From Alphaproteobacteria bacterium (lineage in GTDB: Bacteria; Pseudomonadota; Alphaproteobacteria; Micavibrionales; Micavibrionaceae), in the NCBI GenBank assembly GCA_018608245.1, contig JABAZY010000037.1:1-64000 (forward strand): DNA of 64,000 bases. Direction: 5' to 3'. The position numbers and the translations under genes are program-made. Under the pieces are notes generated by a model. That model was not told the origin of the DNA. It worked only from the letters and a program-made list of their open reading frames with translations, and ran no database searches. Positions 56,958 through 60,976 of the stretch are shown piece after piece. The first letter of the stretch is position 1. Each line of letters begins with the position of its first letter.

Positions 56958-57101
56958 ATGTTAGAACATAAACAAAAAATTATCGTTAGTGGTATCGGTG
57001 TTATCGGTATTTTACTTATTCTATTAGGTCTTGCTGGTGGTGCCTTGCCTCCTGTTTTATCTGGCGTTGGATTTCTACTTATCCTTTGGAAGCTAGTTTA
57101 A
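56958..57101 (+). CDS. Small hydrophobic membrane protein, 47 aa
   Basis: Starts at ATG 56958 with GGGAGA 8 nt upstream and ends at 57101. After MLEHKQK the protein is almost entirely hydrophobic: IIVSGIGVIGILLILLGLAG and then a GGALPPVLSGVGFLLILWKL stretch, likely two short helices with a Gly/Pro turn. Not recognised. Codon use and ribosome site favour a real gene. Followed by about 237 nt without an obvious feature. Confidence 0.6.
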   Translation: MLEHKQKIIVSGIGVIGILLILLGLAGGALPPVLSGVGFLLILWKLV

Positions 57102-57650: not shown

Positions 57651-57679
57651 TTGACTTATACCTAAGGGGGGTATATATT
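57651..57679 (+). promoter_or_regulatory. Strong promoter of the copper-type operon, likely leaderless
   Basis: TTGACT (57651-57656) and TATATT (57674-57679) are spaced by exactly 17 nt. The -10 ends 6 nt before the ATG at 57686, so transcription should start at or next to the start codon. The spacer carries the operator described next. Confidence 0.7.
57657..57675 (+). promoter_or_regulatory. CsoR-type operator in the promoter spacer
   Basis: TATACC (57657-57662) and GGTATA (57670-57675) form a perfect 6-bp inverted repeat around the 7-nt TAAGGGG. A/T-rich arms with a central G tract are typical of CsoR/RcnR/FrmR-family operators. It lies between the -35 and -10, where bound repressor would block RNA polymerase. 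The CsoR-family gene is at 58760 in the same operon. Confidence 0.65.
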
Positions 57680-57685
57680 AAATAT

Positions 57686-58327
57686 ATGAGGTTTTTTCTT
57701 TTTATTATCACAATGATTGCATTAATTCCCCTCCCCCTAATGTCTAGCGTGGAGGCTAGACCCGTTTCTTACCCAGGAGGATGGACAGTAATGTCCATGA
57801 ATGACAATGACACGAACAGTACGCATATACACTACTCACCAACGATTAATTATTCGATTGGGTGGCGTCATGACTATCAACGTGATACGTCCACGAATAT
57901 GGACAGCATCCAGATAAACAATCTGTTAAAGCGTTGGAACAAAAAAGGTGAACAAGCCAATTTCTATCTGAAATCTGGTGTTGGTATTGCCTATGATGAT
58001 GGCGAAGCAGCGCCTGCTGCTTTTACAGGGATTGCCCTTGATTGGGAAACCCGCCGTTACTTCACCTCATACGAGAATAAATTCCAATGGACAGACGATG
58101 TTGGCAATAGCTTTGTGAAGCATAAAGCCCGTGTGGGTATTGCACCTTATATTGGGAATTTTGGTGATCTGCATACTTGGCTAATGTTAGAAACACATTT
58201 TGATGCGGGGGAGAAAGATAGCTTTGGCGCTACGCCCCTCGTCCGTTTTTTCAAGGGCACAACAATGGTCGAAGCAGGTTATAATTTAGATGACGGCGTA
58301 TTATTTAATTTTGTACAAAGATTTTAA
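57686..58327 (+). CDS. Exported protein of unknown function, first gene of the CsoR operon
   Basis: A 213-aa protein with signal peptide MRFFLFIITMIALIPLPLMSSVEA. The mature part is rich in aromatic and beta-prone segments (IHYSPTINYSIGWRHDYQRD, FYLKSGVGIAYDDGE, GIALDWETRRYFTSYENKF) and ends with GYNLDDGVLFNFVQRF, a terminal Phe typical of outer-membrane beta-barrels. It looks like a small outer-membrane or periplasmic beta-barrel. A shortened paralogue lies at 60587. It is probably transcribed from the CsoR-regulated promoter without a leader. No annotated family recognised. Confidence 0.75.
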   Translation: MRFFLFIITMIALIPLPLMSSVEARPVSYPGGWTVMSMNDNDTNSTHIHYSPTINYSIGWRHDYQRDTSTNMDSIQINNLLKRWNKKGEQANFYLKSGVGIAYDDGEAAPAAFTGIALDWETRRYFTSYENKFQWTDDVGNSFVKHKARVGIAPYIGNFGDLHTWLMLETHFDAGEKDSFGATPLVRFFKGTTMVEAGYNLDDGVLFNFVQRF

Positions 58328-58388
58328 CCGTCCGTAATGTGTTTACACGTCTGAGGACAAAACAAAAAAGCAGAAGGAATAGAAGAAA

Positions 58389-58727
58389 ATGAAAAAATTA
58401 TTATTAGCAGTAGCTTTGATTACATTAGGCACAGCACCAGCGATAGCAGAAGAAAAAGTTGTGCTTGATCCAAAAGAAACACCAGCCGAAGTCGTTGCCA
58501 CTGTTGAGCGTGATGTTGTGATTGACGTGGCGGGTATGGTTTGTGATTTCTGTGCGCAATCCATCCAAAAAGTTTTTGGCAAGCAAGATAGCGTTGTCGC
58601 TACAAGCGTTGATTTAGATGCGGGCCAAGTGATTGTTGACCTTAAAGATGGCGCAGAGTTAAGCGATGAGAAGATAGATGAGATGATTACCTTTTCTGGT
58701 TATGAGGTCACAAAAATAACGCGCTAG
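58389..58727 (+). CDS. Periplasmic HMA-domain heavy-metal-binding protein
   Basis: A 112-aa protein with signal peptide MKKLLLAVALITLGTAPAIA and one heavy-metal-associated domain containing the CxxC metal site in VAGMVCDFCAQSIQKVFG (MerP/Atx1-like). It probably binds Cu(I) or another thiophilic ion in the periplasm. AAGGA precedes the ATG. It lies 61 nt after the exported-protein gene and 32 nt before the repressor start, so it is in the same operon. No P-type ATPase is nearby. Confidence 0.87.
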   Translation: MKKLLLAVALITLGTAPAIAEEKVVLDPKETPAEVVATVERDVVIDVAGMVCDFCAQSIQKVFGKQDSVVATSVDLDAGQVIVDLKDGAELSDEKIDEMITFSGYEVTKITR

Positions 58728-58759
58728 ATTTGTTAGCGCGCAGAAACAAGGAGCCTATT

Positions 58760-59065
58760 ATGAGCGATAATTGTTGTGGTGATAAAGATCACCAGCACCC
58801 AGATCATTCGAAATTAATTCCCAACCTGAACCGCGCCAGTGGACAGTTAGAGGGGATTAGAAAAATGATTGATGAACGGCGCTATTGCCCCGACATTATG
58901 ACGCAACTCCGCGCCACCCGCGCCGCGCTGAAAGCAATTGAAGCCAATATCCTTGAATCCCATCTATCAGGCTGCTTAACAGGCGCTCTTGCCGAAGGTG
59001 ACGAAGCAACGCGCGACCAAAAGATGGCAGAGATAAAAGATATTTTTAAACGCTATGATGATTAA
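58760..59065 (+). CDS. CsoR-family copper-sensing repressor
   Basis: A 101-aa all-helical repressor of the CsoR/RcnR/FrmR family. The ligands C43 (RRYCPDI), H68 and C72 (LESHLSGC) form the C-H-C pattern of Cu(I)-sensing CsoR proteins, rather than the RcnR (Ni/Co) or FrmR (formaldehyde) sets. The N-terminus is rich in Cys/His (DNCCGDKDHQHPDH), as in some family members. AAGGAG at a good distance before the ATG at 58760 decides the start over 58730. It probably autoregulates the operon through the operator at 57657. Confidence 0.88.
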   Translation: MSDNCCGDKDHQHPDHSKLIPNLNRASGQLEGIRKMIDERRYCPDIMTQLRATRAALKAIEANILESHLSGCLTGALAEGDEATRDQKMAEIKDIFKRYDD

Positions 59066-59456
59066 TAATAAAAATTTAGGCTTAACTGCCTTGTGTATTC
59101 TACTCTTCACGATTGGATGTTACAATGTATGGCAGCACCCAAAGGCACAAGAGTTTCTATCAGATAAAAAATTTTCCTACGGCCCGTGCGGAAATAAGAA
59201 AATATCAATAAACCCCTCAGGCTGTATTACCTACTGGAAAGAATGGAACAAAAACATTCAAACAAAAGAAAACATTGGAACAGAATATAATAAACTGACA
59301 CCAAGACAAAGAGCCTCTAAATTTAAGGCGACATATTGCGATCCTGACAGCGATGTAAATGCTACAAGTCTTGATTGTAGTAAATATGATAAAATCAAAA
59401 AACACCCAAAACAAGGCGGCCGTTACAGAAACTCCTACGGAAACGAACCCAATTAA
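59055..59456 (+). CDS. Membrane-anchored Cys-containing protein, 133 aa
   Basis: Not recognised. LGLTALCILLFTIGCYNVW is a signal/anchor. The polar part has YGPCGNKKISINPSGCITYW and DVNATSLDCSKYDKI; several Cys are present. The segment around DCSKY resembles the end of the 84-aa protein at 33266. It overlaps the repressor gene by 11 nt, so it may be the last gene of the operon. Confidence 0.6.
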   Translation: MMINNKNLGLTALCILLFTIGCYNVWQHPKAQEFLSDKKFSYGPCGNKKISINPSGCITYWKEWNKNIQTKENIGTEYNKLTPRQRASKFKATYCDPDSDVNATSLDCSKYDKIKKHPKQGGRYRNSYGNEPN

Positions 59457-60586: not shown

Positions 60587-60976
60587 ATGAGGTATTTGTA
60601 TGTCATTATTGGATTATGCTTAGTTTTCACATCCCCTGCAAAGGCGGATGGTCTTCTTGAGCTGCAAGAGTTTATTACTTACAACATCAAAGTGGTTGAT
60701 GACATCAAACAAGATTACAATCATCTATCCTTTAAAAGCTGGGATAAAACCCAAGACAACAATGGTATGTACATTAAATCTGGTGTTGGTTACGCCTCTC
60801 GTTTAGGGGAGATTGACGGTCACAACGCTTGGTTGATGCTAGAGCTGAAACATGAAGGTGGCGGTAAAGTTAGCCCGCAGACATTCGTGCGTTTTTATAA
60901 AGATGATAACGGCATTATTGAAGGCGGTTACAACATGGAAGATGGCTTCATCTTCAGATTGAAAAAATCGTTCTAA
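60587..60976 (+). CDS. Shortened paralogue of the exported protein at 57686
   Basis: A 129-aa protein with signal peptide MRYLYVIIGLCLVFTSPAKA. Its C-terminus (AWLMLELKHEGGGKVSPQTF, VRFYKDDNGIIEGGYNMEDG, ending FRLKKSF) aligns with the end of the 213-aa protein (TWLMLETHFDAG, VRFFKGTTMVEAGYNLDDG, FVQRF); MYIKSGVGYA matches FYLKSGVGIA. About 80 residues of the middle are absent. The gene is intact and uses an extended -10 promoter. Whether it is functional or decayed cannot be told. Confidence 0.7.
   Translation: MRYLYVIIGLCLVFTSPAKADGLLELQEFITYNIKVVDDIKQDYNHLSFKSWDKTQDNNGMYIKSGVGYASRLGEIDGHNAWLMLELKHEGGGKVSPQTFVRFYKDDNGIIEGGYNMEDGFIFRLKKSF

Follow-up and report, generated by a model that had tools for sequence, protein, structure and literature searches.

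CsoR-family repressors are normally tied to cytosolic efflux pumps, and the locus described here raises the question of what such a repressor does when the genes that precede it in its operon encode two exported proteins. The locus lies in a window of 64,000 nucleotides (the whole stretch of DNA that was analysed), part of a 76.5-kb contig (G000:C48) of a 2.02-Mb, 99.9% complete genome from the Micavibrionaceae. A sequence-only reading of the window had proposed that a copper-releasable CsoR governs a secreted protein and a periplasmic HMA protein, with no exporter. We find that csoR is here repeatedly paired with an unnamed barrel family and a periplasmic HMA carrier, and that the operon, judging from its sequence and that of its relatives, very probably constitutes a genuine module for copper handling in the cell envelope, of which we found no earlier description.

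A predicted CsoR operator is embedded in the promoter of a three-gene operon

The operon begins at a sigma-70-type promoter on the forward strand (57651–57679), which by direct reading is the best promoter-like match of the region (10/12) and consists of a −35 box TTGACT (57651–57656), a 17-nt spacer (57657–57673), and a −10 box TATATT (57674–57679). Within it, at 57657–57675 on the same strand, lies a predicted CsoR type-2 operator, TATACCTAAGGGGGGTATA, built as TATACC-TAAGGGG-GGTATA. Direct reading confirmed the promoter, the inverted repeat, and the gene positions of the sequence-only reading, and its placement of the repeat exactly in the spacer holds to within 2 nt, the final 2 nt overlapping the −10 box. 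In the window this exact repeat is found a single time (0.006 copies expected from base composition alone), and this is its sole copy in the 2.02-Mb genome (0.19 expected on the same basis). It is also an exact fit to the published consensus for the type-2 site of Streptomyces lividans CsoR, with its invariant TAC-X9-GTA (PMC3902906).

Three genes follow on the forward strand. The first (57686–58327) encodes a 213-aa barrel-like protein with a signal peptide and a C-terminal F; the second (58389–58727), a 112-aa periplasmic HMA metallochaperone with a signal peptide (PF00403, E = 1.4e-8); and the third (58760–59065, ATG at 58760), a 101-aa CsoR repressor (PF02583, E = 3.9e-24). Because the first gene starts, at 57686, only 6 nt past the end of the −10 box, the mRNA of the barrel operon is probably leaderless. 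The distance from the operator GTA to the ATG is 11–13 nt in most csoR-linked sister promoters of the barrel family, and csoR-free relatives (e.g., L066 and L070) have a recognisable ribosome-binding site. Ahead of csoR, a strong hairpin, ACGCGCTA-N7-TAGCGCGC (58719–58741), spans the HMA stop codon; it is terminator-like only when read on the minus strand, and we predict it to be a possible attenuator or processing stem, which could possibly set the ratio of HMA protein to repressor.

The limits of the operon are less sharply drawn. An ORF on the forward strand at 59055–59456, overlapping the csoR stop, encodes a secreted or anchored orphan with no Pfam or NCBIfam match and no relative in the neighbourhoods of the loci compared; co-transcription with the operon is possible, and its membership is doubtful. 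Upstream of the operon, at 56958–57101, the window carries a 47-aa single-helix membrane ORF, and a similar ORF occupies the same place in L058.

The first gene probably encodes a small outer-membrane beta-barrel

The secreted protein encoded first has no Pfam or NCBIfam match above cut-off, and among 22 members of its family none matches a Pfam model above cut-off or has a PDB relative by profile. Relatives occur in 36/95 genomes of related bacteria, 19/385 genomes across the class, and 4/398 in a sample of the phylum (the three samples overlap, some genomes being in more than one); a plasmid search found none on plasmids. For the comparisons that follow, we used 51 loci encoding a relative of this protein, drawn from the same order, class, and phylum, together with one Nitrosomonadales contig.

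A C-terminal aromatic residue with alternating hydrophobic residues is the signature of outer-membrane barrels assembled by BAM. At 50 of the 51 loci the protein ends in F or Y; positions −1, −5, and −7 are hydrophobic throughout the 51, −3 is so in only 37, and −2 and −6 are almost always polar. In the members that were aligned, a signal peptide can be recognised by eye. An AlphaFold model (three sequences) gave about ten antiparallel strands at low confidence (pLDDT 46), so that its strand pattern lends weak support only, and a Foldseek search with the same model returned a list rich in outer-membrane barrels, with no significant match. On the strength of the C-terminal signature, along with the strand pattern and the Foldseek list, we regard the 57686 product as a probable small outer-membrane beta-barrel from a family without a model. 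The earlier description of a novel, beta-rich exported protein is thus borne out as to its secretion and its undescribed family, although the protein is most likely an outer-membrane barrel and not a soluble one.

The window also carries a short paralogue of the C-terminal half of the barrel protein (60587–60976, forward strand; E = 1.5e-7, profile E = 3.6e-4). It sits after an SPFH/Band 7 gene, and the two together form an insertion relative to sister genomes, in which a Rap1a-like gene directly follows the operon.

The HMA gene always follows the barrel gene and usually precedes a MerT-like partner

The HMA gene stands directly after the barrel gene in 51/51 loci. In the window, its product matches PF00403 with the CxxC motif MVCDFC and carries an export signal (read by eye), in support of the periplasmic HMA protein of the sequence-only reading, and the nearest solved relatives of its HMA domain are copper-ATPase domains and CopZ. 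At 39 of the 51 loci, the next gene encodes a MerT-like inner-membrane protein of 120–150 aa, in which helix 1 has an invariant CC and a loop contributes another cysteine pair, C-x(9)-C; the match to PF02411 is weak and was seen in 4 of 9 members (best E = 0.0013). This gene is missing from the window operon, which encodes no MerT inner-membrane protein, as well as from its csoR-bearing genus sisters L055, L056, and L058 and from L059, which belongs to another genus. In L057 the order is barrel–HMA–MerT-like–csoR–permease, and an SO_0444/SaoE-like permease has been added in two csoR-linked barrel operons in all. Since most relatives keep the MerT-like protein in the operon, the window operon appears to be a cut-down form of an envelope module of three genes, its missing membrane partner reflecting a derived loss or relocation in the window group, most simply a local loss.

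Far from the operon, L106:1423–1872 (minus strand) encodes a membrane protein without a family match whose CC pair resembles that of MerC/MerT; its product is a candidate for the missing inner-membrane partner. A cassette free of csoR, found in L066, L069, L064, L065, L070, and L018, comprises a CopL-like small secreted protein, the barrel, the HMA protein, and the MerT-like protein; some such cassettes also carry a glutaredoxin–MauE/DoxX fusion, a possible means of holding the HMA cysteines in the reduced state.

These partners bear on the direction in which the module moves metal. MerT and MerP are importers, and metal import would be odd for a detoxification operon. The MerT-like partner, with its CC and C-x(9)-C pairs and its weak MerT match, speaks for a reading in which the module brings metal inward, the barrel admitting copper, the HMA protein carrying it, and the MerT-like protein, where there is one, moving it across the inner membrane, or else parks copper in the periplasm as PcoB may do. 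PcoB, an outer-membrane barrel from an operon for copper defence, allows copper to enter and may aid its periplasmic accumulation (PMC9210255), and by analogy this precedent, too, keeps import or accumulation alive. We nevertheless consider this reading unlikely: we noticed no cytosolic detoxifying enzyme such as MerA near the loci, and induction of a CsoR operon by excess cytosolic Cu(I) would better fit export or sequestration. Export, import, and buffering all stand as candidate roles of the module.

The repressor has the fingerprint of a copper sensor

The 58760 product is the only PF02583 protein in the genome and belongs to the CsoR/RcnR family (85.3 bits against a cut-off of 22.8). Its best-scoring NCBIfam model is RicR, at 67.8 bits and short of the cut-off of 175, and among solved structures its closest relatives are InrS, the top by score, and several CsoRs. 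A Cys/His pattern alone does not predict the metal sensed (PMC4235346), and we typed the sensor by its W-X-Y-Z-(A-B-C) fingerprint with criteria from the same source. By alignment, the window CsoR has C43 at X, H68 at Y, C72 at Z, Y42 at A, E91 at B, and K88 at C, the pattern of a Cu(I)-sensing CsoR (C-H-C ligands, second-shell Tyr at A and Glu at B, and neither Glu nor Asp at C); the sequence-only reading numbered the three ligands correctly, counting from the ATG at 58760. Sister csoR genes from the same order stand directly ahead of a gene for a CopA-type ATPase (L076 and L082) or for a permease with scores to both SO_0444 and SaoE (L057, L059, L075, L077, L078, L079, and L080), the permease reaching 107 bits against the SO_0444 cut-off of 300 and thus being a relative only. 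These neighbours support copper as the sensed metal. Together with the fingerprint and the type of operator, they support the assignment of the window CsoR as a copper-type sensor, as the sequence-only reading had supposed.

Could the sensor instead answer nickel, as InrS does, or another thiophilic metal, with the module handling that metal? InrS is the best solved relative by score, and the window CsoR has both an N-terminal His cluster and H11 at the W position, the latter being compatible with an InrS-like sensor of Ni(II) as well. However, the A and C positions are Pro and Glu in InrS, its type being marked by Glu at C with a non-Tyr A, where the window CsoR has Tyr and Lys, and these two positions led us to disfavour InrS-type sensing. 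The W-position His is itself reported to be non-essential for Ni binding in InrS (PMC4235346), and H11 is not conserved among sister CsoRs, most of which lack it (among the relatives, it recurs only in L033). With copper-related neighbours beside the sister CsoRs and an HMA domain closest to those of copper ATPases and CopZ, we consider a module for nickel or another such metal improbable.

The operator accompanies csoR across related loci

We scanned the 51 loci for a strict TACC-N7-GGTA within 420 nt of the barrel gene. A first pass found the site at 9/9 loci with csoR and at 1/42 others; at the single exception, which at first seemed to have an operator and no csoR, extra DNA revealed a divergent csoR across the site. 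The final count is therefore 10/10 loci with an adjacent csoR against 0/41 without (naive p = 8e-11, the kinship of the loci being ignored), with the proviso that at several loci the sequence compared extended no further than 1.5 kb or the contig end; a csoR beyond that limit could escape notice, but the promoters of these loci lack the site. At all ten csoR-linked loci, as at 57657–57675, the site is a type-2 TAC-X9-GTA with a G-tract in the controlled promoter. The CsoR control put forward by the sequence-only reading is thus supported by an operator footprint.

Because csoR linkage requires at least four changes on the barrel protein tree, on well-supported branches, the association appears to be recurrent and not inherited once, with csoR linkage changing several times and the operator following each time. 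The repressor gene is found in three arrangements, last, first (L033), and divergent (L129), and in L054, a sister genome with the barrel–HMA pair in the same chromosomal slot, csoR and the operator are both absent. A scan of genome contigs with CsoR gave three relatives, one of them useful (L033). The suggestion that the trio is no functional unit, with csoR control of barrel and HMA an incidental product of chance proximity, could appeal to the lack of csoR at 41/51 loci and to the variable flanking gene order, but the operator footprint, which tracks csoR in several separate lineages and all three arrangements, and the universal adjacency of barrel and HMA make it highly improbable.

Two local peculiarities emerged among these loci. 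At L131:5603–5617 and L132:4285–4299 the predicted barrel ATG lies inside the CsoR operator (TACCCCCTATGGGTA), so that the sites for repressor and initiation overlap. At L055:6955–7046 the expected ATG and the region coding for the signal peptide are in different frames, at a run of four A; a fault of the assembly, a disrupted start, or else slippage or an unusual start could account for this.

The genome has no P-type ATPase

No P-type ATPase (PF00122) is present anywhere in the 99.9% complete window genome, which does encode a haem-copper oxidase. The same absence holds for 7/9 other genomes of the genus, and the csoR-linked sisters within the genus likewise encode none of any type. Genomes with a csoR-linked barrel lack the ATPase in 5/6 cases against 25/89 (p = 0.011), a comparison confounded by shared genus, and we do not claim a correlation. 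Two ArsP_1 fragments in the window genome come from YraQ-like permeases cut off at contig edges; one of them, a partial piece, was scanned and scored 45 bits to SaoE and 37 bits to SO_0444, far below the cut-offs, and we discounted these fragments as evidence of a copper exporter, although one may exist. The lack of an exporter noted by the sequence-only reading is accordingly true of the operon, in a genome without P-type ATPases, but is a derived state, given the MerT-like protein kept at 39/51 loci and the permease added at two csoR loci.

A model for the operon

What can be read directly comprises the promoter with its embedded operator, a copper-type CsoR, an exported HMA protein, an exported barrel-like protein, and their repeated co-occurrence. 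From these parts, control by copper induction is likely, and we hold it fairly probable that barrel–HMA–csoR is a copper-inducible, auto-regulated envelope operon whose products pass or bind copper at the envelope. At low cytosolic Cu(I), CsoR would occupy the operator between the −35 and −10 boxes and block transcription of all three genes; Cu(I) bound at C43-H68-C72 would release it, and the three proteins would then be made. The HMA protein would bind periplasmic Cu(I) through its CxxC, and the outer-membrane barrel would either pass copper across the outer membrane or offer a binding surface there. In most relatives, the MerT-like protein with its paired cysteines would complete the chain across the inner membrane; in the window group, its loss from the operon would leave a module of periplasm and outer membrane, working with transporters encoded elsewhere or as a buffer. 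More tentatively, and with considerably less confidence, we propose that the barrel and HMA protein, in full form with the MerT-like protein, make up a trans-envelope copper system under CsoR that stands in for CopA in some lineages.

The 41 barrel loci without csoR are a counterpoint to this model, since they imply that the module is not inducible by copper everywhere and that its metal is perhaps not always copper. In the search for the same trio in relatives, as proposed by the sequence-only reading, the barrel–HMA pair was constant and the operator was constant wherever csoR is adjacent, but csoR itself is absent from most loci. As to the proposal of an undescribed periplasmic buffering system, the trio was not found described in the open-access literature that we searched, but buffering is one option of several, beside export and import. 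For a family found in about a third of the order's examined genomes and scattered more widely, the model supplies a likely function, and the module offers a concrete way to test how bacteria lacking CopA move copper across their envelope or retain it there.

Comparison with known systems

CsoR-family repressors with non-ATPase outputs, HMA carriers, and outer-membrane copper barrels are each known already; in the open-access literature we came across no account of the barrel family, of the MerT-like partner, or of all these parts together. The SO_0444-family Cu/Zn efflux permease touches the module through related permeases beside sister csoR genes, in two cases within a barrel operon, but is absent from the window operon. 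MerT–MerP, a pair that takes up mercury, resembles the module as it stands in relatives, where a periplasmic HMA protein lies beside a small inner-membrane protein with CC and a second cysteine pair; it differs in that the window has no MerR, MerA, or MerT and adds an outer-membrane protein and CsoR, and in that the relatives' MerT-like partner matches PF02411 weakly.

Closer in regulation are the csoR–copZA/cso operons of Bacillus subtilis, S. lividans, and Mycobacterium tuberculosis, which share with the window a CsoR with the Cu(I) fingerprint, a promoter with a TAC-X9-GTA operator (of type 2, like that of S. lividans), and, in the copZA operons, an HMA protein among the outputs. Unlike them, the window operon has no CopA ATPase, its HMA protein is periplasmic, and its first gene encodes an outer-membrane barrel. 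Outputs other than an ATPase, which the sequence-only reading took to be unusual, have a precedent in RicR of M. tuberculosis, likewise a CsoR-family repressor over envelope and binding proteins (PMC10141476); its outputs, however, are MymT, LpqS, a permease, and a multicopper oxidase, in a dispersed regulon and a mycobacterial envelope. PcoB/CopB provides the parallel for the first gene, an outer-membrane barrel (here probable) encoded in a copper-responsive operon (here predicted), but neither CopB nor any other Pfam family matches the window barrel in sequence, and where a two-component system governs PcoB/CopB, the predicted control here is by CsoR.
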